Source: a virus. From it: a stretch of 21,522 nucleotides of DNA. The stretch is taken from IMG/VR virus record IMGVR_UViG_3300008110_007969, positions 1 through 21,522 of that record; one strand, 5' to 3'. Each line of letters opens with the position of its first letter. Within the stretch, counting starts at the first letter, position 1. Positions 2,529 to 21,522 of this stretch are shown in pieces. The position numbers and the translations under genes were made by a program. The notes beneath the pieces were generated by a model. The model worked only from the letters and a program-made list of their open reading frames with translations, did not search any database and was not told the origin of the DNA.

Positions 2529-2553
2529 TCATCCTCCACCGTCAAATTGTTAG
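2529..2553 (+). repeat. Border repeat copy R1 (AAATTGTTAG variant)
   Basis: TCATCCTCCACCGTC followed by AAATTGTTAG. It shares the CCACCGTC core of the family but has AAATTGTTAG in place of GCAACAAGATG, as does copy R5. It directly abuts the GTG start of the loader-like gene; its complement supplies GGTGGAGG as a ribosome site. Confidence 0.75.
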
Positions 2554-3354: not shown

Positions 3355-3401
3355 TCATCCACCACCGTGACAACAAGACAAGATAAAAACTTTAGCCCCG
3401 T
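3355..3401 (+). repeat. Border repeat copy R2
   Basis: TCATCCACCACCGTGACAAC followed by AAGACA, a 13-base variable part, then AGCCCCGT. It lies in a gene-free region and has the same plus-strand orientation as the other copies although both neighbouring genes are on the minus strand. Confidence 0.8.
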
Positions 3402-4044: not shown

Positions 4045-4073
4045 GTCTATCACATGTCATCCGCCACCGTCAA
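4045..4073 (-). promoter_or_regulatory. Possible leaderless promoter using repeat R3 as -35
   Basis: On the minus strand TTGACG (4073-4068, inside repeat R3), a 17-bp spacer and ATAGAC (4050-4045) are followed by 7 bases and the ATG at 4037. The -10 is a weak match, but the geometry equals that of the stronger promoter in repeat R6. Confidence 0.4.
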
Positions 4074-4862: not shown

Positions 4863-4863
4863 A

Positions 4864-5294: not shown

Positions 5295-5296
5295 TA

Positions 5297-5605: not shown

Positions 5606-5625
5606 ACAAATACTTTTCCTTTCGT

Positions 5626-5866: not shown

Positions 5867-5887
5867 GTCCCTCCTTTCGCCGTGCAC

Positions 5888-5915
5888 TGTATAGGCGGCA
5901 GCTAGCTAGATGCAA
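5888..5915 (-). promoter_or_regulatory. Promoter for the 68-residue gene
   Basis: Minus strand: TTGCAT (5915-5910), 16-bp spacer containing CTAGCTAG, TATACA (5893-5888), followed by AAAGGAGGG before the ATG at 5866. Confidence 0.6.
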
Positions 5916-5933
5916 CTCCTGGCCGGCAAATTA

Positions 5934-5980
5934 TCATCCGCCACCGTCGCAAGAAGATGGCATCCCCCTGGAAGCCCCGT
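5934..5980 (+). repeat. Border repeat copy R4
   Basis: TCATCCGCCACCGTCGCAAG followed by AAGATG, a 13-base variable part and AGCCCCGT. It lies between divergent genes. Confidence 0.85.
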
Positions 5981-6638: not shown

Positions 6639-6663
6639 TCTTCCGCCACCGTCAAATTGTTAG
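6639..6663 (+). repeat. Border repeat copy R5 (AAATTGTTAG variant)
   Basis: TCTTCCGCCACCGTC followed by AAATTGTTAG. It starts 3 bases after a plus-strand stop and overlaps the minus-strand stop codon TAA at 6660-6662, so it fills the whole convergent junction. Confidence 0.8.
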
Positions 6664-8533: not shown

Positions 8534-9258
8534 TAGATACCTTCGTTCACTTTCATCGCGTCAATAATTGACTTTGCGCGCTCATGGAAGACCATTTCAG
8601 CCGCTTGCTTTGCGCCAAGTGCTGTGCGTAGCTTGTCAAACGCGTACCACGAACGCAAAGAAACACGACGCTCTCCTGCATCACACAAACGGCGAGCTGG
8701 TTCGCGCAAGTCTTCGCTTAGACGAGCAAGTGCGTCTGGGTGTGGCTCGTTGATACGAATACACACAGGGAAACGGTCTTTGAGTGCCATAGGCAGGTCG
8801 CTCATCTGTTCGATGTTGGTTGTCATTACAACGCTGAAACCATTTATCGGAGTAACTGTTTCCATCGTGTCAGGATTAGTCCACTTCGCGCTTTCAGGGC
8901 TGTCGGTAATTGCAAGCAGAGTTGCAAACACGTCGCCACCTGCCTTGTCAATTTCGTCAATGACCAAGCGGCCACCAACTGTTCCGTTTCCACGCCATGC
9001 CAAGATGCCTGCGCCTTCGTTCCAAGACAGGTTTCCGTCTTTTGTTGGCTTCCACATTCCGGTCACTTCTGCTGTTGTCATGTCGTCGGTGCAAGCCAGA
9101 CGGTGTGCGCCGCCATCAACATTTCCGAGCGATAGACCTGCATAGGTTTTTCCGATGCCGGGCGCGCCGTACAGAACTACACGGTCAATGCCTGCGAGCA
9201 GAGCATTTTCGAGTGTCTGCCAGCATTTCGGCAGGTTTGTTTGTTTTGTCTTTGTCAT
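8533..9258 (-). CDS. MoxR-type AAA+ ATPase
   Basis: The 241-residue protein has Walker A GAPGIGKT (31-38), Walker B RLVIDEID (97-104), sensor 1 VVMTTN (143-148) and an arginine finger in ALKDRF (R162). The insert between Walker A and B (TTAEVTGMWKPTKDG) matches the MoxR/CbbQ/GvpN group. Such ATPases work as hexamers with a VWA partner, here the next gene, to activate or dismantle a target complex. Ribosome site AAAGGGGAAG stands before the ATG at 9258. It is short for the family, with a reduced lid domain. The operon starts at the promoter near 9827. Confidence 0.9.
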   Translation of the reverse strand: MTKTKQTNLPKCWQTLENALLAGIDRVVLYGAPGIGKTYAGLSLGNVDGGAHRLACTDDMTTAEVTGMWKPTKDGNLSWNEGAGILAWRGNGTVGGRLVIDEIDKAGGDVFATLLAITDSPESAKWTNPDTMETVTPINGFSVVMTTNIEQMSDLPMALKDRFPVCIRINEPHPDALARLSEDLREPARRLCDAGERRVSLRSWYAFDKLRTALGAKQAAEMVFHERAKSIIDAMKVNEGI

Positions 9259-9356: not shown

Positions 9357-9758
9357 TCAGGAAGCCTGAGCGATGCTCTGCTTCTTTGACTTTGCTTCTG
9401 CCGATACTGGCGTGACGCGTACTTGTGAGTACGGAGTTACGTTTGCGGCGGTAAGAGCCACCTGCTCGTCAATAAGACCCATCTTCACTGCGCTGTCCAT
9501 CAGCTCGTTGTCCACGACCATCTTTACTACTTTCTTTAGAACGGTCGGCTTGACCATCTGTGAAAGAGTTTCAGCGTCGTAAGAAACACGGGTTGCTTCT
9601 ACGATTTTGACAAGAACACCATCAACGGTGTAGTTGTCAATTCCAGCCTGAGCGAGTTCCTTACGGAGTTCTGCTTCTGCGGCTTTCTTTGCCTTTGTTG
9701 CTTCTGCTTCTACTTGCTTTAGAGCCAGATAGTTCTGGACTACTGCTTGGAGTGCCAT
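9357..9758 (-). CDS. 133-residue coiled-coil protein, first gene of the AAA+/VWA operon
   Basis: The ATG at 9758 (MALQAVVQNYLALKQVEAEA) follows AAGGAAAAAG; the longer frame from 9827 would run through the promoter. Residues 10-45 form an Ala/Glu/Lys-rich coiled coil. The rest (DNYTVDGVLVKIVEATRVSY, then VVKMVVDNELMDSAVKMGLI) looks like a compact alpha/beta domain. Position directly before the ATPase and VWA genes suggests it is a scaffold, adaptor or substrate of the pair. No family recognised. Confidence 0.7.
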   Translation of the reverse strand: MALQAVVQNYLALKQVEAEATKAKKAAEAELRKELAQAGIDNYTVDGVLVKIVEATRVSYDAETLSQMVKPTVLKKVVKMVVDNELMDSAVKMGLIDEQVALTAANVTPYSQVRVTPVSAEAKSKKQSIAQAS

Positions 9759-9995: not shown

Positions 9996-10024
9996 ATTTT
10001 ACAGGTCTTCCACCACCGTCGCAA
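9996..10024 (-). promoter_or_regulatory. Leaderless promoter whose -35 lies in repeat R6
   Basis: Minus strand: TTGCGA (10024-10019, from the repeat core), exactly 17 bases, TAAAAT (10001-9996), 7 bases, GTG at 9988. Confidence 0.6.
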
Positions 10025-10060
10025 GATGCAGTCCCGCTGGGGTTCCGCGAAGCGGGGCTT
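10006..10060 (+). repeat. Border repeat copy R6 (hairpin, inverted 3' block)
   Basis: TCTTCCACCACCGTCGCAAG followed by ATG, then CCCGCT and AGCGGG forming a hairpin that ends GGGGCTTCTGG. The 3' block is the reverse of AGCCCCG. Confidence 0.8.
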
Positions 10061-10727: not shown

Positions 10728-10768
10728 AAAGCCCCTCAGCCTTCGGGTTGGGGGGCTTTCTTATTTCC
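10728..10768 (+). terminator. Intrinsic terminator
   Basis: AAAGCCCC (10728-10735) pairs with GGGGCTTT (10752-10759), the stem being extended by CAGCC/GGTTG around a TTCG loop; TCTTATTT follows. Confidence 0.85.
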
Positions 10769-10776
10769 CCCACTTC

Positions 10777-10828
10777 TCATACGCCACCGTCACAACAAGA
10801 TGTCAGCTGCCGGGCAATAGCCCCGTTG
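10777..10828 (+). repeat. Border repeat copy R7
   Basis: TCATACGCCACCGTCACAAC, AAGATG, a 16-base variable part, AGCCCCGTTG. It lies directly behind the terminator of one unit. Confidence 0.9.
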
Positions 10829-10843
10829 GTTTATGTTTCTGCA

Positions 10844-10901
10844 GCAGCTCTTCGAGCCCGGACGCAGCTCGTTGAGCCCGGTGCGCAGCTCTTCGAGCCG
10901 G
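10844..10901 (+). repeat. Three tandem copies of an 18-bp unit
   Basis: GCAGCTCTTCGAGCCCGG starts at 10844, GCAGCTCGTTGAGCCCGG at 10864 and GCAGCTCTTCGAGCCGG at 10885, giving periods of 20 and 21 bp. That is two helical turns, so a bound protein would see each site on the same face. They stand upstream of the promoter at 10933. Confidence 0.75.
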
Positions 10902-10932
10902 CAAATATTTTTTAGATTTTTTCTCGTGATAC

Positions 10933-10961
10933 TTGACAGGTACAAGTGCTACCTGTACACT
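10933..10961 (+). promoter_or_regulatory. Promoter with spacer palindrome
   Basis: TTGACA (10933-10938), 17-bp spacer, TACACT (10956-10961). ACAGGTA (10936-10942) and TACCTGT (10950-10956) are a perfect inverted repeat with a 7-base centre, filling the spacer: a likely operator. Confidence 0.78.
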
Positions 10962-10992
10962 AAACGGCACACACCTACCGAAAGGACAAAAA

Positions 10993-11511
10993 ATGGGAAT
11001 GGACGTTATTGGCAAAAAGCCAAAGAATGAGAAAGGCGAGTACTTTCGCAACAATGTGTGGTGGTGGCGGCCACTAGCAACATTCATTTGCGACACCTAC
11101 CCTGACCTCGCAGAACAATGCGAATACTGGGGAAGCAATGACGGAGATGGGCTCGACGCAAAAACATCTCTCCAACTCGCAAAACTCATTCGTCAAGACC
11201 TCGCTAATGGCAAGGTCGCAGAGTTTGAGCGTGAGTACAACACTTGGCGCGCAGAACTGCCGCGCGAAAAATGCTCTTTCTGCGAGGCAACTGGTATCCG
11301 CCGAGATGAAGTCGGACAGGAAAACGGAATGCCCGACAAGGAACTTGCAGAAGAAGTCAAGATTTTGGTCGGACGTGAGTTCGGCTGGTGCAACGCTTGT
11401 CAGGGCGTTGGTACAACAGAAAACTGGAACGCTGGATACCCGTTCAGCATTGAGAATGTAGAGGAGTTCACCGAGTTCCTAGAGAACTGCGGCGGATTTG
11501 AGATTTGGTAG
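10993..11511 (+). CDS. 172-residue protein with two CxxC pairs
   Basis: Starts MGMDVIGKKPKNEKGEYFRN followed by NVWWWRPL, a start I recognise from a conserved family of phage and bacterial hypothetical proteins. Two CxxC pairs, CSFC (about 96-99) and CNAC (about 134-137), could bind one zinc as in a DnaJ-like or zinc-ribbon fold. AAAGGAC stands before the ATG at 10993; an upstream in-frame ATG at 10933 lies in the -35 and is rejected. First gene of a unit that continues with the XRE regulator. Function unknown. Confidence 0.75.
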   Translation: MGMDVIGKKPKNEKGEYFRNNVWWWRPLATFICDTYPDLAEQCEYWGSNDGDGLDAKTSLQLAKLIRQDLANGKVAEFEREYNTWRAELPREKCSFCEATGIRRDEVGQENGMPDKELAEEVKILVGREFGWCNACQGVGTTENWNAGYPFSIENVEEFTEFLENCGGFEIW

Positions 11512-11540
11512 TTGCTATTTCCAAAAACGGCAAGTACCAT
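11512..11540 (+). promoter_or_regulatory. Possible internal promoter for the XRE gene
   Basis: TTGCTA (11512-11517) directly after the preceding stop, 17-bp spacer, TACCAT (11535-11540). Confidence 0.5.
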
Positions 11541-11572
11541 TACCACCCAACCAATATCCCTAAGGAGGGACT

Positions 11573-11785
11573 ATGAAAACAAAACAGGAAAAACTAGCAA
11601 CGCGGCTCTATGAGTACCGCATTGAAGCCGGGCTGACGCAACAGCAAGTTGCAGACCTCGCAGGCGTAGACCGCAAGACGGTGAACCGCATTGAGAACAA
11701 CCGTTTCTCTCCGAGCGTGGACACCATCTTCCGTTTGTGTGTCACGTTTGCAAAGAAGCCTTCGGAAGTGTTTGAGGGGCTCTAA
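11573..11785 (+). CDS. XRE-family helix-turn-helix regulator
   Basis: A 70-residue Cro/CI-type domain with nothing else. TRLYEYRIEAGLTQQQVADL is helices 1 and 2, AGVDRKTVNRIENNRFSPSV the recognition helix and following turn, ending in FAKKPSEVFEGL. This short form resembles YgzD-like regulators. TAAGGAGGGACTATG is a near-perfect ribosome site. It is followed two bases later by the 91-residue gene, so it may control its own unit. A repressor role is likely. Confidence 0.92.
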   Translation: MKTKQEKLATRLYEYRIEAGLTQQQVADLAGVDRKTVNRIENNRFSPSVDTIFRLCVTFAKKPSEVFEGL

Positions 11786-11787
11786 AA

Positions 11788-12063
11788 ATGGCTTCCTCTA
11801 TCTCACCGGTCTCAGGGGTGGTAATCACCCCTGAGATGGCGAAAAGCATTGCAGAAGCCACAGAAACAAAGCAGCTAGAAATGGCAACAAATGTTTGCCG
11901 TACACTCGTGGAAACACTTGATAGCGATTTGTTCGGTAACGGCTTGAAGTACATCAGCCCTCTTGACCTTCTTGATGTGCTGGGTATTTGTGGTCTTTCT
12001 CTGACTATCGGAGAATGGGCTTCTTGGACATATTTGACAGAGTTGGAAAAGGTAGGTCAGTAA
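11788..12063 (+). CDS. 91-residue protein of unknown function
   Basis: Starts MASSISPVSGVVITPEMAKS and is mostly helical, with a C-terminal part reading LDLLDVLGICGLSLTIGEWA. It begins 2 bases after the XRE stop and is immediately followed by the next ATG, so it is in the same operon. CTCACCGGTCTCAGGGGTGG in the 5' coding part contains the inverted repeat CTCAGGGGTG/CACCCCTGAG (about 11811-11835), which could be an RNA hairpin near the start. No family recognised. Confidence 0.7.
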   Translation: MASSISPVSGVVITPEMAKSIAEATETKQLEMATNVCRTLVETLDSDLFGNGLKYISPLDLLDVLGICGLSLTIGEWASWTYLTELEKVGQ

Positions 12064-12492
12064 ATGGCTACACGTTCGATTATCGCTGAAGTCTCTGAAA
12101 AGGGCTGGCAAGGGCGGTACTGCCATTGGGACGGACACCCGGGAACAAAGTTAGACCAACTTTTGTTGCTGGTTGCTCGTGATGGCTTGCAGACCGTTAC
12201 TCAAACCATTATCCACGACAACTATTCGTGGTCGTCTATTGACCCATTCCAAAAGGAAGACGGCAGCCAATGGAAGTTCGTAGAGGGATACGGGTACGCA
12301 CATAACGACATTGAAGAACCACGTCGGTATATGTTCACCGAAGCAGACACAGAGTTTGCTTGGGCAGAGTATCTGTATGTTCTTGGTGTGAGCGGCATAC
12401 AAGTCTGGACAGCATCAACCGAAGCAGATGGCGTCGATACTTGGGTTACGTCCGAAGATGATTTCCACCCATACACATCAGTATTCGTGTAA
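12064..12492 (+). CDS. 142-residue conserved phage/plasmid-type protein (HWDG motif)
   Basis: Starts MATRSIIAEVSEKGWQGRYC followed by HWDGHPGTKLDQLL. The start MATRS, the YCHWDG-x-P motif and the tryptophan/tyrosine-rich middle are shared by a widespread family of hypothetical proteins in phages and mobile elements. Function is unknown. The ATG directly follows the upstream stop codon (TAAATG). A strong terminator ends the unit 17 bases after the stop. Confidence 0.78.
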   Translation: MATRSIIAEVSEKGWQGRYCHWDGHPGTKLDQLLLLVARDGLQTVTQTIIHDNYSWSSIDPFQKEDGSQWKFVEGYGYAHNDIEEPRRYMFTEADTEFAWAEYLYVLGVSGIQVWTASTEADGVDTWVTSEDDFHPYTSVFV

Positions 12493-12508
12493 CTAAACCA
12501 AACCATTT

Positions 12509-12552
12509 CCCCTCACTCGCAGTCACGCTCTGCGGGTGGGGGGATTTTTTTT
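12509..12552 (+). terminator. Intrinsic terminator
   Basis: CCCC-CAC-CGCAG (from 12509) pairs with CTGCG-GTG-GGGG around a short loop, followed by eight T residues. Confidence 0.9.
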
Positions 12553-12562
12553 GTCCCGGAAC

Positions 12563-12614
12563 TCATACACCACCGTCGCAACAAGATGTCTGGCGCAGCC
12601 CAAGAGCCCCGTTG
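12563..12614 (+). repeat. Border repeat copy R8
   Basis: TCATACACCACCGTCGCAAC, AAGATG, 16 variable bases, AGCCCCGTTG. CCCAA before and TTGGG after the AGCCCCG block could pair and expose it in a loop. Confidence 0.9.
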
Positions 12615-12658
12615 GGTTTTCTTTTTTATCCTCAAGCTGGTTCTTTTCCCCGGCTGAT

Positions 12659-12687
12659 TTGTTTTTTCTCGAGCTGCAGCCTACACT
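12659..12687 (+). promoter_or_regulatory. Promoter for the 196-residue gene
   Basis: TTGTTT (12659-12664), 17-bp spacer with CTCGAGCTGCAG, TACACT (12682-12687); AGAAGGAG follows before the ATG. Confidence 0.65.
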
Positions 12688-12713
12688 TATCACACCTACT
12701 AGAAGGAGTATTT

Positions 12714-13304
12714 ATGAGTTTTGTAACTGACCGTACACGCAGTTCCATTGAGGAACTTATCCAACGACTGAATTCGCTCGCCGAAGATATCGGAATGGAG
12801 GGAATTGAGCCTGTTATTATTTTCCGCCGCAACGAATACGACGACGAAGCCGTGGTTACACCATTGTCTGATGAGGCAGAGAGTTGGGAAGAAGCTTTGA
12901 TTCGCACTTTCTATCGTTTGTTCCTCGCTAAAGAAGAACAAATGTATTGGGTTGGTGCAATTTGCGAGTCTTATGGTTTAGTGAAGGACGGAGTTCTGCT
13001 GAACCCAGTGCCCGGCGGGATTCAACCCGGCGACCTCGAGGAAGATTTCACAAACAACCCATTCAGTGAGGTGACATTAGGTGTTTCTGTGTTCCTTGCT
13101 TGCGAGAACGGGGAAACCGAGTTTATGTTTTACCCTTCCAAGCGTGATGACAACGGAAAGGCTGTATTCGGTAAGCCATGGGTACGCAGCGCAGACACCA
13201 CTGCTGATGGTATCTCTGAGAGCGAGGTTTATCTGGCTCGTTTCCAAGAGGTGCTTGCTCAGTCTCGTGCCGGCGAACTCACTTTCGACGAAGAAGACGA
13301 ATAG
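12714..13304 (+). CDS. 196-residue acidic protein of unknown function
   Basis: AGAAGGAGTATTTATG sets the start at 12714 (MSFVTDRTRSSIEELIQRLN); the longer frame would run through the promoter. The sequence is rich in Glu and Asp, ending TFDEEDE. It is probably a soluble alpha/beta protein, without metal-binding cysteines or membrane segments. It forms its own unit with promoter, gene and repeat R9 acting as a terminator-like hairpin. No family recognised. Confidence 0.75.
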   Translation: MSFVTDRTRSSIEELIQRLNSLAEDIGMEGIEPVIIFRRNEYDDEAVVTPLSDEAESWEEALIRTFYRLFLAKEEQMYWVGAICESYGLVKDGVLLNPVPGGIQPGDLEEDFTNNPFSEVTLGVSVFLACENGETEFMFYPSKRDDNGKAVFGKPWVRSADTTADGISESEVYLARFQEVLAQSRAGELTFDEEDE

Positions 13305-13305
13305 T

Positions 13306-13356
13306 TCTTCCGCCGCCGTCGCAACAAGATGCCCTTCCGCGCCAGCGGCGGGGCTT
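13306..13356 (+). repeat. Border repeat copy R9 (terminator-like, inverted 3' block)
   Basis: TCTTCCGCCGCCGTCGCAAC, AAGATG, then a variable part ending GCGGCGGGGCTT. CCGCCG in the core and CGGCGG in the 3' part can pair, and CTTTTGTTCTT follows, so this copy may itself act as the terminator of the gene that ends 2 bases before it. Confidence 0.85.
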
Positions 13357-13442
13357 TTGTTCTTCAGCACGTATTTTGTTTTGCAGCAGCTGTGCCGGCA
13401 ATAGTTTTCGAGCTGCCGCCCAGAAATAGTTTTTGCAAATAC

Positions 13443-13471
13443 TTGACATTGGGGCGTAGATGGGGCATACT
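13443..13471 (+). promoter_or_regulatory. Leaderless promoter
   Basis: TTGACA (13443-13448), 17-bp spacer, CATACT (13466-13471), then 6 bases to the ATG at 13478. CATAC and GTATG (13466-13480) form an inverted repeat spanning the -10 and the start codon. Confidence 0.8.
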
Positions 13472-13477
13472 GTACGT

Positions 13478-13888
13478 ATGAAACTTACACACTATAAAGA
13501 CATTGCCCAGTGGGACGGGGAGTTATCAAACTCCTGCACCTGCAGCAACTACAACGAGACAACCGGCGAATGGAATCAAACCGACGTTTGCTTTGGAGAT
13601 TGTTGGGACGACCAACTTGAAATCTTCGGAGAGTCCGTCAAAGAGTTCTTCGACGGTAACGAGCTCAAAGAATGGCAAGTAGACGGACTCCCATTGTGGG
13701 GACGCACGGTATCAGGCAAGTTCTATGCAAAGAAGATTGCCGACTTCGTTCAGGGAATTACCGTTCGCGGCGAATGGCACTTGTTCTACAAGTTGGACGG
13801 CGACTCTCTGCGAGTTCGTCTGTCTCACCACGACGTCCCAACTGGCGGCGTGTTCACCGTCCGTTATGCCGAGGTAGGCGAGGAATAA
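13478..13888 (+). CDS. 136-residue cysteine-containing protein, leaderless
   Basis: I place the start at the ATG at 13478 (MKLTHYKDIAQWDGELSNSC), because the ATG 18 bases upstream lies in the promoter spacer. The promoter geometry puts transcription start at the A of this ATG. Cysteines at about 20, 22, 38 and 42 (SCTCS and DVCFGDCW) near the N-terminus could bind a metal. The C-terminal half is beta-rich. No family recognised. Confidence 0.75.
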   Translation: MKLTHYKDIAQWDGELSNSCTCSNYNETTGEWNQTDVCFGDCWDDQLEIFGESVKEFFDGNELKEWQVDGLPLWGRTVSGKFYAKKIADFVQGITVRGEWHLFYKLDGDSLRVRLSHHDVPTGGVFTVRYAEVGEE

Positions 13889-13914
13889 TACCTACCAAGC
13901 AATAAACCGTTCGA

Positions 13915-13958
13915 GCCCGGCGTGTCTCTCCCCTGAGATGCGCCGGGCTTTTTCTTTT
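13915..13958 (+). terminator. Intrinsic terminator with inner hairpin
   Basis: GCCCGGCG (13915-13922) pairs with CGCCGGGC (13941-13948); the loop GTGTCTC...GAGATG holds a second small stem. TTTTTCTTTT follows. The terminator at 14625 has the same loop. Confidence 0.9.
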
Positions 13959-13965
13959 CCCCGGC

Positions 13966-14016
13966 TCATACGCCACCGTTGCAACAAGATGTCAGCGGCC
14001 CCCCAGAAGCCCCGTT
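13966..14016 (+). repeat. Border repeat copy R10
   Basis: TCATACGCCACCGTTGCAAC, AAGATG, 16 variable bases ending CCAGA, AGCCCCGTT. Confidence 0.9.
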
Positions 14017-14067
14017 ACATCGCGTTGATGTCGTCCCCGGCCAGAACGCGTCGATGGCAGCAGCTGA

Positions 14068-14105
14068 GTCTTTCGCTGGCCGTGAAGTCTTTCGCCGGCC
14101 GTGAA
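14068..14105 (+). repeat. Two tandem copies of a 19-bp unit
   Basis: GTCTTTCGCTGGCCGTGAA at 14068-14086 is repeated as GTCTTTCGCCGGCCGTGAA at 14087-14105, one base different. They lie 20 bases upstream of the -35 at 14125. Confidence 0.8.
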
Positions 14106-14124
14106 TAATTCAGCGGCCAAAGAC

Positions 14125-14153
14125 TTGCATTCTTGTACCGCAGGCGGTATGAT
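14125..14153 (+). promoter_or_regulatory. Promoter with palindrome touching the -10
   Basis: TTGCAT (14125-14130), 17-bp spacer, TATGAT (14148-14153). TACCG (14136-14140) and CGGTA (14145-14149) form an inverted repeat next to the -10. Confidence 0.75.
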
Positions 14154-14179
14154 TACACCAACTACCTAAGGGGGTAAAT

Positions 14180-14602
14180 ATGGATATCGAATCCGCAGTG
14201 AGTCGTATGCTCACTAAAGCACCAAAGCGGCAAGACCGTGAAACGGAATGGGTATGGAAGTCACCAACCCAAGACGTGGAGAAACTTGACCACACAGGTG
14301 AGGCAGTCGGAGTTCAAATTGAACTGGAACTACGACATGACGCCAAGCGTAAGCAGTTCATCGCAATAATGCGCAAAGTCCATTACAAGGACGCCAGCAC
14401 GACAGGTTTCTCTGTCACATTCTTCAGCCCGTTTGACAGCGTGAACTATCCTTCAATAATTATCGCACGCCACCCGGTTGCACGCTATTCAAAGACGCAA
14501 GCTCATTTCTTTGAAACAATCGTGCTTGAAGAACTTGCTAACTATTGCGAGCAAAGCGAAGAAGTAGCCAAATTGGTGCAACTCGCCGCAAGTTACGCCT
14601 AA
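14180..14602 (+). CDS. 140-residue protein of unknown function
   Basis: TAAGGGGGTAAATATG sets the start at 14180 (MDIESAVSRMLTKAPKRQDR). The N-terminus is basic and helical; the middle is a beta-rich stretch (VGVQIELELRHDAKRKQFIA) and the end is helical with EELANYCEQSEEVAKLVQLA. It is a single-gene unit with its own promoter and terminator. No family recognised. Confidence 0.75.
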   Translation: MDIESAVSRMLTKAPKRQDRETEWVWKSPTQDVEKLDHTGEAVGVQIELELRHDAKRKQFIAIMRKVHYKDASTTGFSVTFFSPFDSVNYPSIIIARHPVARYSKTQAHFFETIVLEELANYCEQSEEVAKLVQLAASYA

Positions 14603-14624
14603 CAGTTATTCAGTTCAGCCACAC

Positions 14625-14671
14625 AGGGCTGGCGTGTCTCCGAGTCGAGATGCGCCAGCCCTATTTGCTTT
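14625..14671 (+). terminator. Intrinsic terminator
   Basis: AGGGCTGGCG (14625-14634) pairs with CGCCAGCCCT (14653-14662), with the same GTGTCTC...GAGATG loop as the terminator at 13915; ATTTGCTTT follows. Confidence 0.88.
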
Positions 14672-14678
14672 CATGGGC

Positions 14679-14729
14679 TCATGCCCCACCGTCGCAACAA
14701 GACGTTTGCGCCCGGGCGAAAGCCCCGTT
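14679..14729 (+). repeat. Border repeat copy R11, overlapping a promoter
   Basis: TCATGCCCCACCGTCGCAAC, AAGACG, 16 variable bases, AGCCCCGTT. The variable part holds the -35 and the 3' end runs into the -10 of the next gene. Confidence 0.88.
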
Positions 14730-14734
14730 ATATT
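14706..14734 (+). promoter_or_regulatory. Leaderless promoter inside repeat R11
   Basis: TTGCGC (14706-14711), 17 bases, TATATT (14729-14734), 6 bases, ATG at 14741. No ribosome site is present. Confidence 0.6.
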
Positions 14735-14740
14735 GATTCC

Positions 14741-14935
14741 ATGAATCTTTTCCACTGTGTTTTCTGCTCGAATCCTGTAGACCCAGACCAACCCGGAATT
14801 GCGCATCTGGTTACCGCATGGGTGCGTGTGGGGAAGACGGCTGTCATAAAGGTTCAAGACAAGCAGTATCAGTACGCCCACGCAATATGCGTAGAGGCGC
14901 CCGGCAAGAAAGAGCAGGAAGAGAAGCTGTTCTAG
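14741..14935 (+). CDS. 64-residue zinc-finger-like protein, leaderless
   Basis: The ATG at 14741 gives MNLFHCVFCSNPVDPDQPGI; the frame is open to 14681 but that part is repeat R11. CVFC (6-9) and HAIC near residue 48 give a CxxC...HxxC metal site in a single small domain. No Shine-Dalgarno sequence is visible and the -10 ends 6 bases upstream, so a leaderless message is likely. It overlaps the convergent microprotein gene by 4 bases. Function unknown. Confidence 0.66.
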   Translation: MNLFHCVFCSNPVDPDQPGIAHLVTAWVRVGKTAVIKVQDKQYQYAHAICVEAPGKKEQEEKLF

Positions 14936-14985
14936 AGAGCAGCGATAATTATTAGCACAACAAGTGCTGTAAGCATTTCAATCAT
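14932..14985 (-). CDS. 17-residue membrane microprotein (family member B)
   Basis: Product MIEMLTALVVLIIIAAL, ending at TAG. The ATG overlaps the TGA of the 80-residue gene (ATGA), so translation is coupled. It differs from the copy at 17649 at three residues (V/F, A/S, L/V) plus several silent codon changes, which argues for selection on the peptide. A single hydrophobic helix with one acidic residue at position 3. Confidence 0.75.
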   Translation of the reverse strand: MIEMLTALVVLIIIAAL

Positions 14986-15224
14986 GAAACTTTAGCTTTC
15001 AGTATGTTTAGTTGTTCTCGTGCGAGGTCTTTGGCAATCAGGGTGAGGTCTTCGTAATCAAACCCCCAAGCCTGAAGCTTGTAATCAAACCGACGTTCGC
15101 TTATGTCCCGGAATAAATTCATCAACGCTTTGAACGGCGGCAATCCTTCACACATGTAATCATCGTAAAGAATTTCACGGACTTCACGTTCAGTGAATTC
15201 TCGTGGGTCGCTAAAGTCTCCCAT
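14982..15224 (-). CDS. 80-residue protein of unknown function
   Basis: Starts MGDFSDPREFTEREVREILY and continues as a helical, charged protein (FRDISERRFDYKLQAWGFDY). TAGGGAGGGAAA stands before the ATG at 15224. It follows the LysM-like gene after 9 bases and is coupled to the 17-residue microprotein through an ATGA overlap. No family recognised. Confidence 0.72.
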   Translation of the reverse strand: MGDFSDPREFTEREVREILYDDYMCEGLPPFKALMNLFRDISERRFDYKLQAWGFDYEDLTLIAKDLAREQLNILKAKVS

Positions 15225-15233
15225 TTTCCCTCC

Positions 15234-15566
15234 CTAAATACATTCTTCTATAACTTCTTGACCGTCTGTCCGACGCAACTCACAACCATCGTGAGTAGGC
15301 AGGTAGATGGTGTCGCCAATTGTAAGAGTTGTCCCATAGAAAGACACAACTTTGTCAAGTGCATTCATTGTGTTCCCGTCACAATTTGTCCGGGTAATCC
15401 AATAAAGGGTGTCGCCTTCTTTGACTGTCAGCGGTGCCCCATTGCAGAAGAACTCGTTGTCCATGGCTTGTTGTTTCTGTAGGAAAGAGAATCCAAGTAC
15501 GGTTGAAGCTGCGACAGCAACTGTTGCAACGCCGGCTTTGAACCCTCGATAGGTGTTTTCGTTCAT
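15234..15566 (-). CDS. Membrane-anchored LysM-like protein, leaderless
   Basis: Start at ATG 15566 (MNENTYRGFKAGVATVAVAA), seven bases after TACAGT; the open frame further upstream covers repeat R12. Residues 9-29 form a membrane anchor or uncleaved signal (GVATVAVAASTVLGFSF). Residues 46-93 (VKEGDTLYWITRTNCDGNTM to LTIGDTIYLP) read as a LysM peptidoglycan-binding domain: GDTL start, middle helix, then xIGDxIYLP end. Cysteine pairs could form a disulphide outside the membrane. A role in cell-wall binding or superinfection exclusion is possible. Length 110. Confidence 0.72.
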   Translation of the reverse strand: MNENTYRGFKAGVATVAVAASTVLGFSFLQKQQAMDNEFFCNGAPLTVKEGDTLYWITRTNCDGNTMNALDKVVSFYGTTLTIGDTIYLPTHDGCELRRTDGQEVIEECI

Positions 15567-15573
15567 GACGTGA

Positions 15574-15602
15574 ACTGTACAGGCTGCAGCAAACAATTGC
15601 AA
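15574..15602 (-). promoter_or_regulatory. Leaderless promoter of the LysM-like gene
   Basis: Minus strand: TTGCAA (15602-15597), 17-bp spacer, TACAGT (15579-15574), 7 bases, ATG at 15566. Confidence 0.68.
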
Positions 15603-15616
15603 ATATTTTTCCTGGC

Positions 15617-15660
15617 TCTTCCGCCACCGGTACAACAAGATGGATGGTTGGGGCGGGGCT
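15617..15660 (+). repeat. Border repeat copy R12 (inverted 3' block)
   Basis: TCTTCCGCCACCGGTACAAC, AAGATG, shorter variable part, GGCGGGGCT. It lies upstream of the divergent LysM-like gene. Confidence 0.8.
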
Positions 15661-15957
15661 CCCAGATGCTGGGTGATGTCGCCCCGGGCGGCCGGGTGCA
15701 GCAGCTCAGGAAGCTCGAGAAAAAGATGGAAAAAAAACGCGTTTTTCGGTTTTTTCAAGTCCTTACTGGGAAAGGGTTTGGTGGCTCACGAGTGCTGGTC
15801 GAAAGAGTTATTCCGGCTCGTGGCAGCTTTCGAGACTTCGTCACGCGTTAGTCCCGTCTTCGCCGTGCGGCTGTCATCGGGACTTCTGGTTGGAGATGGC
15901 AATAGCTACCGGGTCGAGCGGTAGCTGCCAGCCGGGTCGAGCAGCTCTGATTCCCTT

Positions 15958-16016
15958 CAGACTTCAGCCCCGTCCGTTCGTCTTCGTAGAAGACGGGGCT
16001 TCTGGTCTTCAGTCTG
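15958..16016. other. Two-tier hairpin carrying the AGCCCCG block in both orientations
   Basis: Outer stem CAGACT (15958-15963)/AGTCTG (16011-16016); inner stem AGCCCCGTC (15966-15974)/GACGGGGCT (15992-16000). The loop can form CGTCTTC/GAAGACG as an alternative. The right arm continues into TCTGG, as in repeat R6 and the hairpin at 15850. Confidence 0.65.
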
Positions 16017-16054
16017 GTTCAGTTGATTTCGTAAGCCGGGAACACTGCAGCGTG

Positions 16055-16093
16055 GTCGACGTGAGTTCCTCGCAGCTACGTCGACGTGAGTTC
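16055..16093 (+). repeat. Two direct copies of a 14-bp unit
   Basis: GTCGACGTGAGTTC at 16055-16068 and at 16080-16093, a 25-bp period, 21 bases before the -35 at 16114. Possible activator or repressor sites. Confidence 0.7.
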
Positions 16094-16113
16094 ATCATTT
16101 CTTTTTCCAATGC

Positions 16114-16142
16114 TTGACTTTTTCTTTCAGGTGGTGTACCTT
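16114..16142 (+). promoter_or_regulatory. Promoter for the 119-residue gene
   Basis: TTGACT (16114-16119), 17-bp spacer, TACCTT (16137-16142). AGGT and ACCT flank a 5-base centre over the -10. Confidence 0.72.
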
Positions 16143-16169
16143 TGACGGAATACGAGAGGGGGTGAAAAA

Positions 16170-16529
16170 ATGAAACTAAAGTTCGGAAGCAGCACGGTGA
16201 ACATTCTCAGCCTTGAGCGAGATTTTCGCCCCTGCGACATCAGCCAAACAAACGCCCAAGTGGGACGGATGAACATTCTCGCCATTTCCGGCGGTCGTGT
16301 AATTCCACTAAAAAACGCAAAAGGCGAAACCGTAGGTGTTGCCTACCCAATAGACCCAACACGCCGTGTTGAGGTACTGCTGGACTGGGACGACACTTAC
16401 ACGGTCAGCCGGGTGCGCTACATCACAAAAGGAAGCGAAGCACACACCGAAGTTGTGGAGTATTCCGCATCAGGTATCTACTGCGATTATGTCGGAGAGG
16501 TCGCCTACTCGGCAAGTTGCTGGAAGTAA
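16170..16529 (+). CDS. 119-residue beta-rich protein of unknown function
   Basis: GAGAGGGGGTGAAAAAATG sets the start at 16170 (MKLKFGSSTVNILSLERDFR). Mostly beta strands (RVEVLLDWDDTYTVSRVRYI) with conserved-looking WDD and aromatic residues. It stands alone between two structured gene-poor stretches, with its own promoter and terminator. No family recognised. Confidence 0.72.
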   Translation: MKLKFGSSTVNILSLERDFRPCDISQTNAQVGRMNILAISGGRVIPLKNAKGETVGVAYPIDPTRRVEVLLDWDDTYTVSRVRYITKGSEAHTEVVEYSASGIYCDYVGEVAYSASCWK

Positions 16530-16540
16530 ACCCGCAAACA

Positions 16541-16578
16541 AGACCCCTAGTCCAACCCCCCGGGCTAGGGGTCTTTTG
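16541..16578 (+). terminator. Intrinsic terminator
   Basis: AGACCCCTAG (16541-16550) pairs with CTAGGGGTCT (16565-16574), perfect 10-bp stem, followed by TTTGCTG. Confidence 0.88.
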
Positions 16579-16588
16579 CTGTCCCGGG

Positions 16589-16640
16589 TCATACGCCACC
16601 GTCGCAACAAGACGCATCGACCAAAATCTGGAGCCCCGTT
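16589..16640 (+). repeat. Border repeat copy R13
   Basis: TCATACGCCACCGTCGCAAC, AAGACG, 17 variable bases, AGCCCCGTT. Confidence 0.9.
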
Positions 16641-16916
16641 GAAGTTCGTTTGTAGCCGGGCTCAACGCGTTCACGAGCTCGATGGCAACACACGAGGTGG
16701 TTGATTTGTTCTTCAGCTCAGAAGGTTTCCGGAATCGACGCATTTTCCCGGGCTGCTGCGGTTCTGGCGGCTGCCGGTTTTCAAGGGCGGGACTTCCAGA
16801 TGCAACGCAGCAAACGATTTACCCCGGGGTGAAGGACGTTGATGACAAGCATCGAAAGTATCTGAGTTGTTCCGGCTCGTGGTCGAGGAAAAACATTTAG
16901 CACTAAACTCTCTTGG

Positions 16917-16967
16917 TCTTCCGCCGCCGTCGCAACAAGATGATACGTGCACACCAGAAGCCCCGTC
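16917..16967 (+). repeat. Border repeat copy R14
   Basis: TCTTCCGCCGCCGTCGCAAC, AAGATG, 16 variable bases, AGCCCCGTC. CACACCAG and CTGGTGTG form a perfect 8-bp stem with AAGCCCCGT as the loop, the clearest view of the conserved block in a loop. Confidence 0.88.
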
Positions 16968-17230
16968 TGGTGTGACTGGGCTGCTGCGTCGCCCGGAGAA
17001 GCCGGCAACTCGACCCGGAAAGTCGCCCCAGAAAGCCCGGAACGCGCTGCATCACCCTTCTGGATGGGACTTTAGTCCCGTAGCTACTCTGGTTCAGCCG
17101 GAAGACAGCCGCTGAGTCGAGCAGCAGCTTTTACCGGGTAGCTCCAGACAAAGGCGGGGCTTATACCCCCTTCTACCGGGCAATGCATTGATGCGCGGCA
17201 GCTCCCAGAAGTTTTCGACCGGGCACACGA

Positions 17231-17264
17231 GCAGTCATCACCATGTCCTCATGGTGGTGACTGC
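17231..17264. other. 14-bp hairpin with 6-base loop
   Basis: GCAGTCATCACCAT (17231-17244) pairs fully with ATGGTGGTGACTGC (17251-17264), one T-G wobble, loop GTCCTC. GAGGGGGCGGGGCT follows. No T-run, so not a normal terminator. Confidence 0.75.
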
Positions 17265-17294
17265 GAGGGGGCGGGGCTATTGGCCCAAGGAACA

Positions 17295-17341
17295 CTCAGT
17301 GCAATTCTTTTTGCGGCAGCACGCAAAAAAATTGCAATGAG
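17295..17341. other. Long hairpin with 6-base loop
   Basis: TGCAATTCTTTTTGCG (17300-17315) pairs with CGCAAAAAAATTGCA (17322-17336) with one bulged C; CTCA (17295-17298) and TGAG (17338-17341) extend the stem past a G/A mismatch. Loop GCAGCA. It is followed by GGGGCGGGGCTTT, as is the hairpin before it. Confidence 0.78.
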
Positions 17342-17427
17342 GGGGGCGGGGCTTTCAGTCTGAAACACGGATGTCTGGTGTTGCGCGCCGGCCAGGAAAA
17401 TATTTTCGATTAATTTGTTTTTGATGC

Positions 17428-17455
17428 TTGACAAGTGCAAGCTGCACCTTATAAA
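17428..17455 (+). promoter_or_regulatory. Near-leaderless promoter with spacer palindrome
   Basis: TTGACA (17428-17433), 16-bp spacer, TATAAA (17450-17455), ATG at 17465. GTGCA and TGCAC in the spacer form an inverted repeat, a likely operator. Confidence 0.72.
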
Positions 17456-17464
17456 GTGCACGGA

Positions 17465-17656
17465 ATGCAAACGATTGGATTAGTAATCACAGCACGCCAT
17501 CGAGACAAGTGTCTACGGTGTGGCGGCCCAATTGAAAAGGACCTGAGCTGCATTCTTGTTCCACGAGAAGGAGTCATGCATTTAGACCGATTCTGTGAAC
17601 TTGAGCAGATTGAACGCAGTAAAAAGGGCCACCCAGCAAGGAGGAACAATGATTGA
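17465..17656 (+). CDS. 63-residue zinc-binding protein
   Basis: Start ATG 17465 (MQTIGLVITARHRDKCLRCG); the in-frame ATG 30 bases upstream lies in the promoter spacer. CLRC (16-19) and the later HLDRFC (His39, Cys44) give a small treble-clef-like metal site. No ribosome site is visible and the predicted transcription start lies about three bases before the ATG. Its 3' end overlaps the microprotein gene by 8 bases. Function unknown. Confidence 0.68.
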   Translation: MQTIGLVITARHRDKCLRCGGPIEKDLSCILVPREGVMHLDRFCELEQIERSKKGHPARRNND

Positions 17657-17702
17657 AATGCTAACCGCATTAGTTTTTCTAATAATCATCGCTTCAGTTT
17701 GA
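17649..17702 (+). CDS. 17-residue membrane microprotein (family member C)
   Basis: Product MIEMLTALVFLIIIASV. AAGGAGGAACAATG is a near-perfect ribosome site, and the start overlaps the end of the zinc-binding gene. Only three residues differ from member B at 14932. Single hydrophobic helix. Confidence 0.78.
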   Translation: MIEMLTALVFLIIIASV

Positions 17703-17724
17703 AACTGCACCTATCGGAGGTACC

Positions 17725-17943
17725 ATGACCACCATGATGGATAACACTGAATTTATCTGTGAATGGTCCGAAGAGGACTTTAAAACATACGGAGAATGGG
17801 TTCAAAAAGCAAAAATGTACGCTGAATCAAAAGACATCTTCAACGATATGCGACATAGCCAAATGGCTTACCGCATGGAACTCGTTTGGGAAAAGCAGAT
17901 TCTGCCCCAAAATGTAGAGGAATACCTTGCAATCCCGAATTAA
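17725..17943 (+). CDS. 72-residue acidic helical protein
   Basis: CGGAGGTACCATG sets the start at 17725 (MTTMMDNTEFICEWSEEDFK). Rich in Trp, Tyr and Met, probably helical. It follows the microprotein by 22 bases in the same transcript and overlaps the next gene by 17 bases. No family recognised. Confidence 0.7.
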   Translation: MTTMMDNTEFICEWSEEDFKTYGEWVQKAKMYAESKDIFNDMRHSQMAYRMELVWEKQILPQNVEEYLAIPN

Positions 17944-18277
17944 CAACTGTGATGCGTGCGGCGCCGCATTGCCAGAGGACACACCATGGTTTCCAGATGA
18001 CGGATGGTCTCTTGATTGGGCAAACTTCGGTGGTTACAGCCAGTTCATGGATGTTCTGGACGAACCGAACCGCCCTACGTGGACCCTTTGTCACGACTGT
18101 GTCGTCAAATTCCTAGAAACATTCCCAGCGCTAGCGGTTGACATTCCTCTAGGTGCGCACCCATCTCGTACGGAGGCACCGTGCTGTCCATGGTCTTACC
18201 GATTGTCGTGGGAAGACGGAGACGCAAGCGGAATTCTCTACCTCCCAGACGGCAATAACTGGAAGCAAGCTAGCTAA
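17927..18277 (+). CDS. 116-residue protein with two CxxC pairs
   Basis: The start is probably TTG at 17927 (MQSRINNCDACGAALPEDTP) with AGAGG before it, overlapping the previous gene. CDAC (8-11) and CHDC (about 55-58) form a likely zinc site; CC follows near residue 85. The combination of CxxCG..LP near the N-terminus and WTLCHDCVVKFLE later occurs in other actinobacteriophage small proteins, of unknown function. Repeat R15 starts 2 bases after the stop. Confidence 0.7.
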   Translation: MQSRINNCDACGAALPEDTPWFPDDGWSLDWANFGGYSQFMDVLDEPNRPTWTLCHDCVVKFLETFPALAVDIPLGAHPSRTEAPCCPWSYRLSWEDGDASGILYLPDGNNWKQAS

Positions 18278-18278
18278 C

Positions 18279-18329
18279 TCATCCGCCACCGTCACAACAA
18301 GACGTGATTTTAAACCTGAAAGCCCCGCT
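18279..18329 (+). repeat. Border repeat copy R15
   Basis: TCATCCGCCACCGTCACAAC, AAGACG, 16 variable bases, AGCCCCGCT. It starts directly after a stop codon; no other terminator is seen for that operon. Confidence 0.88.
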
Positions 18330-18524: not shown

Positions 18525-20459
18525 GTGACCTCACGACTTTCGCTCGCAGACGACCATCTGGTTCTTGACTTCCCGTACGACGCAAATCAGGTCACTGAAA
18601 TAAAAAGTATCCAAGGCGCAAAATGGGACAAAGTCTCTCGTGTCTGGAGAGTACCCATCAGCAGCATCGAACGCGTCCGGGATTTTGCAGCGGGGCATCA
18701 GTTCGTTATTGACCCAGATGTGCTGCTCTTCGATGTCCCAAAGCCGCTCACTAAGACCTCAGGTGTTGGAAGGAAAGGTGAATGGCTCTACCTCAGGTTT
18801 AGCTACGACCCGGTAAAAGTTCGAGCAGTCAAAGCTGTCCCCGGCATCACATGGGATACCAAAGAAAAAAGCTGGAGAGCCCCGTTGACATCAATCACTC
18901 AGGTAATAGCTTGGGCAGAAATGTTCGGTCTTGACACGCCGGCAGAAATAATCAACGAAGCTGCTCGAGTCAAAACCGTTAGAGAAGAAACAATCCTCGC
19001 ATCAAAGGCAAAAGATGCAGAACTTGACATTCCCACGCTGACTGGGACACTACTTCCTTACCAAAAAGCAGGAATAAAATATGCCGTAGCTGCTGGAAGG
19101 AGTTTCATAGCCGACGACATGGGGCTCGGTAAAACGGTACAAGCAATCGGTGCGGTCGAACACGCAAACTCATACCCCACCGTTGTGGTTTGTCCGGCGG
19201 GGCTTGTTTTGAACTGGCGAGATGAATTCAACAAATGGCTGCCGCAACGCCGGGTTTCCGTCGTCACCAACCGCTCAAACTTCCCTGAGAAAGGAACATT
19301 TGACGTGCTTGTTATCGGCTACCCAAACATAACCCATTGGAACAAACTCCTTCTTGGTTACAACGGGTATGTATTCGATGAGTCGCATTACGCAAAAAGC
19401 CCGACAGCCCAACGCACGAAAGCTTCAGTGAAGATGGCACGTTCCGCGCCAGAAGGCGGCCTCGTGTTGTGTTTGACCGGGACACCCATTACCAACCGTC
19501 CCGCTGAATACGCATCCCAGCTCGACATCCTTGGCCAGCTCAACAGGTTCGGCGGCTTATGGGGTTTCTATCGAAGGTACTGCGGTGCGTTTCGAGACCG
19601 ATTTGGCCAATGGCACATTGATGGCGCAACCAACCTTGATGAACTCAACGAAACACTGAGGTCAATTTGCTACATCCGGCGTACAAAAGACCAAGTGCTT
19701 GAAGAGCTGCCCCCAGTAAGGCACTCCCGTCTGGTCGTTAGCGGGACTTCATCTGGAATGAAGGAATACCGGGAAGCCGAAGCTGACATTATTGCTTACA
19801 TAGTTGCTCGAGCAGAAGAAATCGCACGTGAACTCGGAAAATCACCAAGGTCAGCAGCCGTGCAAGCAAAAATCAAAGCCGAATCAAGCGAACACCTCGT
19901 ACGCATCTCCGTTCTAAGAAAACTTGCCGCAAAAGCAAAAATTGATGCCGTCTACGAATGGATTGACCAAAAGATTGGAGCAGGTGAAAAGGTTGTTGTC
20001 GCCGCACACCACCGGGAAGTCGTTGATGCAATAGCCAACCATTACTGCGGACTGAAAATCCAAGGGGGAATGTCCGTCGAGGACGTGCAAGAAGCCAAGT
20101 TGCGATTCCAGACTGGGTCCATAGATGAAGCCCCGATTATTTCTTTATCTATCCAAGCAGCTAAAACCGGACATACGCTAACCGCAGCTCAAGAAGTTCT
20201 CTTTGTCGAGCTTCCATGGTCCCCGGCAGATGTTGACCAGACCTACAGTCGCTGTCATCGCCTTGGCCAGAAAGGTTCAGTGATGGCAACCTATATTCTT
20301 GCCTCTGGCACGATTGACGAGGAAATATATGACCTGATTGCCTCAAAGCGGGCTGTGGTAAACGCAGCCACAGAAGGTTCTTCCGACGAGGAATCTTCTG
20401 GCGGGGCTGAACAGTTAGTTATGAAGTTTCTTGAAAATGGGCTTGCAGCTTCCGACTGA
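18525..20459 (+). CDS. SNF2-family helicase with two HARP-like domains (SMARCAL1-like annealing helicase)
   Basis: The 644-residue protein starts with GTG. Residues 5-70 and 84-140 are two similar modules (LxLxFxYDxxxVxxxKxxxG, a TWD/KWD step, W-R-x-P), which match HARP domains of annealing helicases such as SMARCAL1. The motor follows: Q motif YQKAGI (179-184), motif I DDMGLGKT (197-204), motif Ia VVVCPAGLVLNW (220-231), DESH (285-288), TGTP (318-321), then the RecA2 half with motif VI YSRCHRLGQ near residues 574-582. All motor motifs look intact. Known relatives rewind ssDNA bubbles at stalled forks, so a role in phage replication or repair is likely. The C-terminus is short and acidic. Confidence 0.92.
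   Translation: MTSRLSLADDHLVLDFPYDANQVTEIKSIQGAKWDKVSRVWRVPISSIERVRDFAAGHQFVIDPDVLLFDVPKPLTKTSGVGRKGEWLYLRFSYDPVKVRAVKAVPGITWDTKEKSWRAPLTSITQVIAWAEMFGLDTPAEIINEAARVKTVREETILASKAKDAELDIPTLTGTLLPYQKAGIKYAVAAGRSFIADDMGLGKTVQAIGAVEHANSYPTVVVCPAGLVLNWRDEFNKWLPQRRVSVVTNRSNFPEKGTFDVLVIGYPNITHWNKLLLGYNGYVFDESHYAKSPTAQRTKASVKMARSAPEGGLVLCLTGTPITNRPAEYASQLDILGQLNRFGGLWGFYRRYCGAFRDRFGQWHIDGATNLDELNETLRSICYIRRTKDQVLEELPPVRHSRLVVSGTSSGMKEYREAEADIIAYIVARAEEIARELGKSPRSAAVQAKIKAESSEHLVRISVLRKLAAKAKIDAVYEWIDQKIGAGEKVVVAAHHREVVDAIANHYCGLKIQGGMSVEDVQEAKLRFQTGSIDEAPIISLSIQAAKTGHTLTAAQEVLFVELPWSPADVDQTYSRCHRLGQKGSVMATYILASGTIDEEIYDLIASKRAVVNAATEGSSDEESSGGAEQLVMKFLENGLAASD
19169..19205 (+). repeat. Repeat-core-like sequence inside the helicase gene
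   Basis: CTCATACCCCACCGTTG (19169-19185) differs from the start of repeat R10 (CTCATACGCCACCGTTG) at one base, and GGCGGGGCTT follows at 19196-19205. It codes for residues around motif Ia. It may be chance. Confidence 0.35.
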
Positions 20460-21058: not shown

Positions 21059-21522
21059 ATGCCAAAATACATGTCACTTATTGACCGATTTTTTGAGAAG
21101 GTTGATAAGTCTGGTAACGATAAATTTCCAGAATGCTGGATTTGGAAAGGTGGAAGGACCAGTAAAGATTACGGTTCTTTCAAGTACTACCAGGAAAAGT
21201 CAGCGATTGGTGCCCATGTATCAAGCTATCTTTTTCATATAGGAGAAATACCAGATGGGAAGATTGTCTGCCATCATTGTGACAATCCACCTTGTGTAAA
21301 TCCAGAGCATTTATTTCTTGATACAAACTCTGGGAACATGAAAGACATGGTTAAAAAGGGACGTAATGGCTCTAGTTCAAAAACACAAACTCATTGCCGC
21401 AGGGGGCATTCGTTTGAAGAATTCGGCGCATACTTACGAAAGAAGAAAAATGGTAAAACTTTCCGCACCTGTAAAGAATGCGAACGTATTGCTGCTTTCA
21501 AAAAAAGACACAGTCCAGAAAC
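21059..21522 (+). CDS. HNH endonuclease (3' end beyond the window)
   Basis: The frame runs from ATG 21059 to the window end, 154 residues so far. ECWIWKGGRTSKDYGSF and IGAHVSSYLFHIGEIPDGKI lead to the HNH core VCHHCDNPPCVNPEHLFLDT, with the two zinc CxxC pairs, the catalytic HH and the NPEHL motif, then NSGNMKDMVKKGR. A C-terminal zinc finger (CRRGHSF and CKEC) follows, typical of phage free-standing homing-type HNH enzymes. Ribosome site AGGGAAAA. Probably a nicking or homing endonuclease that targets phage or host DNA. Confidence 0.9.
   Translation, partial: MPKYMSLIDRFFEKVDKSGNDKFPECWIWKGGRTSKDYGSFKYYQEKSAIGAHVSSYLFHIGEIPDGKIVCHHCDNPPCVNPEHLFLDTNSGNMKDMVKKGRNGSSSKTQTHCRRGHSFEEFGAYLRKKKNGKTFRTCKECERIAAFKKRHSPE

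Follow-up and report, generated by a model that had tools for sequence, protein, structure and literature searches.

A short polar repeat as a probable boundary element of gene cassettes in a hypervariable island of large, putative freshwater actinophages

Promoter early stem-loops (PeSLs) are said, after Arbiol 2010 and Comeau 2014, to be mobile regulatory cassettes of T4-type phages. As they are cited in PMC4503421, these are promoter-terminator motifs that mediate shuffling. A motif of the haloarchaeal myovirus HGTV-1, composed of a TATA box-like region and an inverted repeat, is compared with PeSLs in the relevant passage of PMC3950731, while Microbacterium phages of clusters EC and EI, according to PMC7302621, carry an asymmetric motif of 18-30 bp in 5-12 copies located in small intergenic gaps. 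Here we describe a repeat found in a linear IMG/VR virus record of 21.5 kb (IMGVR_UViG_3300008110_007969, positions 1 to 21,522; hereafter, the window). This repeat is probably the boundary element of a gene-cassette array in a hypervariable island of large freshwater actinophages. Its core sits between cassettes, the units that relatives gain, lose and re-order and that also occur inverted, and the polarity of the core is fixed along the array, independent of the strand of the genes. A boundary is laid out, from left to right, as the rightward terminator of the previous cassette, the core, a spacer, an AGCCCCG/CGGGGCT block, a leader, a sigma70-like promoter and then the ORFan genes, one or a few in number. 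Several breakpoints of near-identical phages are located in the core or directly beside it.

The repeat was re-measured directly from the letters of the window, which holds 15 copies (R1-R15, numbered from its left end), all 15 of them on the + strand. The core is 15 bp long, TC[A/T]T[C/A]C[G/A]CCACCGTC, and in the lineage of the window it is mostly followed by GCAACAAGATG or GCAACAAGACG, then by a variable stretch and then by AGCCCCGT or CGGGGCT. The spacings given in the original prediction proved exact: the stretch after AAGATG/AAGACG is 16 nt long in the copies at 10777, 12563, 13966, 14679, 16917 and 18279, 17 nt at 16589 and 13 nt at 3355 and 5934. The second block is indeed inverted (CGGGGCT) in the copies at 10006, 13306 and 15617, and the perfect stem around AGCCCCGT at 16917 (arms CACACCAGA / TCTGGTGTG) was recovered as well, reaching 9 bp with AGCCCCG as the loop. 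Three copies not covered before (2529, 4057 and 6639) have the core and lack AGCCCCG. The genes near 2529-5934 and those to the left of 15617 run on the - strand, yet all cores of the window are +. A sixteenth, weak match at 19170 lies within the helicase gene and was taken as chance.

For comparison, more than 70 related IMG/VR contigs were gathered by a DNA-pattern scan and a helicase search, and two further pattern scans added more. One rearrangement is seen between the window and L007 or L015 (~79-80% identical), where a 600-nt cassette (14030-14631, gene 14180-14602) is present or absent, with one core left and with the junction within the terminator/core region. Comparison of 18 pairs of relatives gave 17 island indels, some of which recur in overlapping pairs; 12 of them fall within 50 nt of a core, against 2.9 expected. 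In G012, G017 and G011, units such as >17, >22, >23, >27 and <25<42<18 are blocks flanked by cores that stand in different orders. In the right part of the island, 67% of neighbour pairs separated by a core show a broken gene order, compared with 30% of the pairs without one; counted as distinct family pairs ever broken, the figures are 37/42 and 12/28 (p about 1e-4, p-values being only a guide because the comparisons are not independent). Order breaks at cores are commoner even among same-strand gaps of at least 60 nt. An operon of families 18-21/42 (window 10993-12492), flanked by cores, is in the + orientation in the window, G001p, G002, G004 and G007, and in the - orientation in G011, G012, G017, G018 and G020, with the polarity of the cores unchanged.

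Near-identical phages allow such breakpoints to be placed relative to the core, whose positions are counted 0-14. Between G007 and G008 (98.3% identical) two exchanges start at core+14 and core+16, their far edge being 99-275 nt from the core and once inside a small gene; for the first of these events (L111/L112), 60 identical nt run up to the core and nothing beyond. Between L038 and L053 one exchange ends exactly at core+0 and another starts at core+17. L031 is without a cassette that L026 has between two almost equal boundary copies, and the crossover lies inside the boundary element, which is consistent with recombination between the two near-equal copies. The core-edge breakpoints are supportive of the boundary reading, not overwhelming. 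Misassembly is argued against by the agreement in order, within a given phage type, between contigs of different samples.

The position of the repeat relative to transcription signals was determined with genes called by a simple purpose-written codon-usage caller. About 181 of ~191 copies are intergenic and 9 lie within a called gene. Flanking genes occur in all four strand combinations (++ 67, -+ 43, -- 38, +- 33), so the polarity of the repeat is independent of transcription. Where a + gene lies on the left at a distance of 40-140 nt, a terminator-like hairpin is located between its stop and the core in 93% of cases (11% in shuffles), and stop-to-core distances peak near 67-80 nt, in line with such hairpins. 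On the other side, a sigma70-like promoter is found between the core and a + gene in 59% (again 11% in shuffles), most often 130-150 nt right of the core (core-to-minus-35 distance). Thus, the core lies between terminator and promoter, in DNA that neither + strand neighbour would be expected to transcribe.

This layout might also be read as that of an asymmetric protein-binding site controlling transcription, comparable to the stoperators of cluster A mycobacteriophages or the motifs of the EC and EI phages, with mosaicism that merely tolerates breaks in intergenic gaps, although we regard this as rather unlikely. A strictly conserved asymmetric 15-bp sequence at about one per gap and the peak in the core-to-minus-35 distance would suit such a site, genes for WhiB and a sigma70 region 4 protein are present in the phage, and actinophage intergenic motifs of unassigned role are already described in PMC7302621. 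However, the orientation of the core does not track the gene strand, for + genes the core stands left of the promoter, whereas - genes have it at one edge, 5' or 3', and order breaks are in excess at cores even in the same-strand gaps.

Several observations concern the promoter region itself. Of 57 leaders separating repeat and promoter in relatives, 18 contain the 7-mer GTCACAC or its complement (0.5 expected from shuffles), a possible regulator site close to the promoter. At window 14721-14741, AGCCCCGT is directly followed by TATATT and ATG (open reading frame ending at 14935), so a leaderless transcript is likely; several relatives have TATAAT/TATGAT and ATG at the equivalent place, and the -10 box is 6-7 nt from the start codon in 11 of 41 predicted promoters. 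Some cores without AGCCCCG (2529, 4057, 6639 and the left parts of relatives) overlap a minus-strand start region. The core as a minus-strand promoter (TTGAC with GGTGGCGGATGA) suits a few left-part copies by eye and was rejected as a general explanation, because copies without AA after the core do not fit.

As for the mechanism, the cores may serve as crossover sites for short-homology recombination at direct repeats. The Rad52-like annealing protein of the phages would most likely drive it, as the searches for a recombinase came back empty: 25 records gave no match to tyrosine recombinases (Phage_integrase, PF00589; controls positive 14/14), serine recombinases (Resolvase; controls positive) or the Y1 transposase (Y1_Tnp, PF01797; controls positive), and Rad52_Rad22 was detected in 8 of the 25, all eight of 80-160 kb. 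Recombination between direct cores would keep every core in the same direction whatever the cassette carries, because each event would join core to core. The AGCCCCG/CGGGGCT hairpins could be mostly arms of leftward or two-way terminators at the left end of the cassette, and such insulation would enable a cassette to work in either orientation, in any order and beside any neighbour. Short-repeat annealing is the most economical model.

Several findings weigh against so simple a scheme. In-place inversion between direct repeats is unexplained by core recombination alone, and recombination at 15 bp alone does not explain why the core is kept across helicases that are ~60% identical; a binding protein that holds the 15-bp core constant is possible. 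Cores also occur in the left part of the island, where most of them lack AGCCCCG and the order of genes is stable, so the core alone is insufficient to make a boundary mobile. In near-identical pairs ~4 of ~30 edges are at the core edge, with ~0.8 estimated by chance, and the edge at the other end lies in many cases 80-275 nt away from a core or within a gene; the exchanges are therefore not strictly core to core. Rad52 is also encoded in records without a close core match (G037, G022, G039), and hence is not specific.

Another explanation, to which we give a fairly low probability, might be a dedicated polar system in which a phage protein recognises the core, AGCCCCG marks the mobile boundaries, and excision, insertion and inversion of single-gene cassettes are directed accordingly. 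If true, large freshwater actinophages would have an integron-like function without a known recombinase. Less probable still is an integron- or transposon-like system whose dedicated enzyme cuts or joins at the core as an attC-like or REP/IS200-like site. One site per cassette, uniform polarity with genes both ways, permuted cassettes, exact junctions and, in a subset, a variable stem with a constant loop would agree with it, whereas the three enzyme families named above gave no match, attC R boxes were not seen and the core-distal ends of the cassettes are imprecise.

As to the second block, among 249 non-redundant copies AGCCCCG (or AGTCCCG) comes first in 164, CGGGGCT in 23 and neither in 62, the last including some chance core matches. 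In ~16% of copies AGCCCCG forms the loop of a perfect hairpin that is strong and whose stems are unrelated in sequence (0.8% with 3' arms permuted), CGGGGCT also follows AGCCCCG within the stretch in 20 copies, as paired arms would require, and a leftward terminator-like signal is found right of A-type cores in 36% (12% in shuffles). We read the block as one arm of terminators, leftward or two-way, which would insulate a cassette at its left end; stem-less copies are not covered by this reading.

The constant 16-nt stretch had been taken in the original prediction as the sign of a fixed-spacing two-site protein target or of an RNA with covarying stems. Of the former, the conserved site with a second block and the spacing within the window lineage stand, and the spacing is not kept in relatives, where the core-to-AGCCCCG distance varies over 7-36 nt in the 164 copies with lineage-specific modes. 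The stem idea holds for the minority of relatives' copies with long perfect stems; in the window a covarying RNA finds no support, as 2 of the 12 block-bearing copies fold more than 2 sd better than shuffles (z below -2) and no fold is common to all. Rfam at gathering and E-value thresholds gave no credible match, and a tRNA/tmRNA search found none. The uniform polarity whatever the strand of the genes, together with a location flanked by terminator and promoter, indicates a DNA-level cassette boundary and disfavours an RNA element. We consider both a structured RNA and a fixed-spacing two-site target very improbable.

Arrays of the same core are present in most of the closer relatives, often with one copy per 650-950 bp. 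Scans of 39 related whole records with a 2-mismatch core pattern showed that many phages have 10-20 copies, almost all of which share one strand, against 0-1 matches per strand for the reversed control pattern; chance is excluded by this difference, as one-strand copies occur in most of the 39 records. All copies at up to 1 mismatch in G008 (160 kb) lie within 121.8-141.5 kb, and the copy-bearing stretch spans 91-110 kb in G012 (138 kb) and 95-111 kb in G038 (156 kb). A genome-wide role in replication or packaging was rejected because the copies are confined to one island. In bacterial genomes the two-part pattern gave no array and 8 lone matches, where ~1 was expected by our own estimate; isolated phages gave no match to the right half of the window, and only chance matches of 18-23 nt when one version of the element was the query.

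Most of the proteins of G008 were scanned against Pfam and PHROG, which revealed WhiB, sigma70 region 4, SSB, class II ribonucleotide reductase, ThyX, the Rad52-like annealing protein, RuvC, tail sheath and Baseplate_J; the last two identify G008 as a myophage. WhiB serves as an actinophage marker in the literature (PMC6802176). The natural reading is that these are large freshwater actinobacterial myophages, the host being predicted, with a variable island of ~20 kb in genomes of 100-160 kb. Two proteins of G008 (L159-L166) match a PHROG named RNase E, and there are ParB-like PHROG matches as well.

The features of the window are listed in Table 1. Eight genes of its right part that were tested gave no Pfam match and one weak PHROG match, the function of that PHROG not being named. 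Window 7028-9258 encodes a 501-aa protein adjoining a MoxR-like AAA ATPase (PHROG ATPase match), and in nearly all island-bearing phages these are kept with the next gene (9357-9758; together families 14-16), whose conserved 133-aa product weakly matches a PHROG for a RecE-like exonuclease (E 7e-4). Right of the helicase, an HNH_3 endonuclease gene (21059-21522) is cut by the window end.

Table 1. Repeat copies and associated features of the window
Feature	Position	Strand	Remarks
Core only (N-type)	2529..2543	+	Between two - strand genes, stable left part
Core 3355-3369 and AGCCCCGT 3394-3401	3355..3401	+	- strand genes either side
Core only (N-type)	4057..4071	+	Between - strand genes
Core and AGCCCCGT 5973-5980	5934..5980	+	Divergent gene boundary
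Core only (N-type)	6639..6653	+	3 nt past stop of + open reading frame; next called gene -
Core 10006-10020, AGTCCCG 10030-10036, CGGGGCT 10053-10059 (B-type)	10006..10059	+	Divergent boundary
Terminator-like hairpin of preceding gene	10736..10770	+	Directly left of core; from sequence and class statistic
Core 10777-10791, 16-nt variable stretch, AGCCCCGT 10819-10826	10777..10826	+	
Sigma70-like promoter (TTGACA..) of cassette 10993-12492	10931..10960	+	From sequence and class statistic
Four-gene cassette	10993..12492	+	Counterpart inverted between cores in G011/G012/G017/G018/G020
Core and AGCCCCGT 12605-12612	12563..12612	+	AGCCCAA/TTGGGTT stem, then T-run
Single-gene cassette (ORFan, family 22)	12714..13304	+	
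Core and CGGGGCT 13349-13355	13306..13355	+	Core 2 nt past stop codon; strong terminator-like hairpin, z -3.4
Single-gene cassette (family 23)	13478..13888	+	
Core and AGCCCCGT 14008-14015	13966..14015	+	Left border of cassette missing from L007/L015
Gene of cassette missing from L007/L015	14180..14602	+	
Core and AGCCCCGT 14721-14728	14679..14728	+	Right border of cassette missing from L007/L015; TATATT, ATG directly after
Core (variant ..CCGGT) and CGGGGCT 15654-15660	15617..15660	+	Divergent boundary
Core, 17-nt variable stretch, AGCCCCGT 16632-16639	16589..16639	+	
Core and AGCCCCG 16959-16965 as loop	16917..16974	+	Perfect stem 16950-16958/16966-16974
Core and AGCCCCG 18321-18327	18279..18327	+	Core 2 nt past stop codon; last boundary before helicase
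Snf2-type helicase	18525..20459	+	Fixed right-hand landmark of island

The repeat provides a sequence-level handle on the assembly and swapping of ORFan genes by phages whose hosts are abundant in fresh water. Its borders are sharp enough for phage genomes to be cut automatically into cassettes and these to be catalogued over many metagenomic contigs, and it allows one to ask whether short-homology annealing is enough for the shuffling or a dedicated enzyme is needed.

Among the described systems, integron arrays likewise have one directional site per cassette, genes without assigned function and a permuted order. The present arrays differ in having neither a tyrosine recombinase nor attC architecture (inspection of the copies found no GTTRRRY/RYYYAAC pair corresponding to the R/L boxes, and no consistent fold in the window), and their cassettes carry their own promoters and terminators and have imprecise distal ends. 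REP and IS200-IS605 elements differ by their Y1_Tnp transposase, to which the 25 records gave no match, and the stoperators of cluster A mycobacteriophages and other repressor sites by a correlation of orientation with transcription that is absent here. The motif of the EC and EI phages is also asymmetric, multi-copy and located in small gaps of actinophage genomes, but its sequence is unrelated, and the section of PMC7302621 on it describes neither a terminator/promoter layout nor a link to shuffling. The HGTV-1 motif is likewise repeated, with an inverted repeat, in one region of a genome, and a role in transcription and shuffling has been proposed for it; in the passage of PMC3950731 concerned, it precedes open reading frames and is promoter-like, and a fixed polarity is not reported. 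The closest analogue would be the mobile regulatory cassettes of T4, and the repeat may be filed with them among phage cassette-boundary elements. Like PeSLs, it joins terminator and promoter in a composite motif, sits in the gaps that separate the small ORFan genes of a hyperplastic region, and is linked to modular shuffling, probably through recombination at a repeated motif. Terminator and promoter are both found in the cassette gaps here (at the 93% and 59% given above), and gene modules are shuffled, as the indels, permuted units and order breaks indicate. The hosts differ, being predicted freshwater Actinobacteria, as does the conserved part, a 15-bp core left of the promoter in place of an early promoter. 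Unlike both PeSLs and the HGTV-1 motif, the repeat conserves a part other than the promoter, and the direction of this part, fixed along the genome, ignores transcription.

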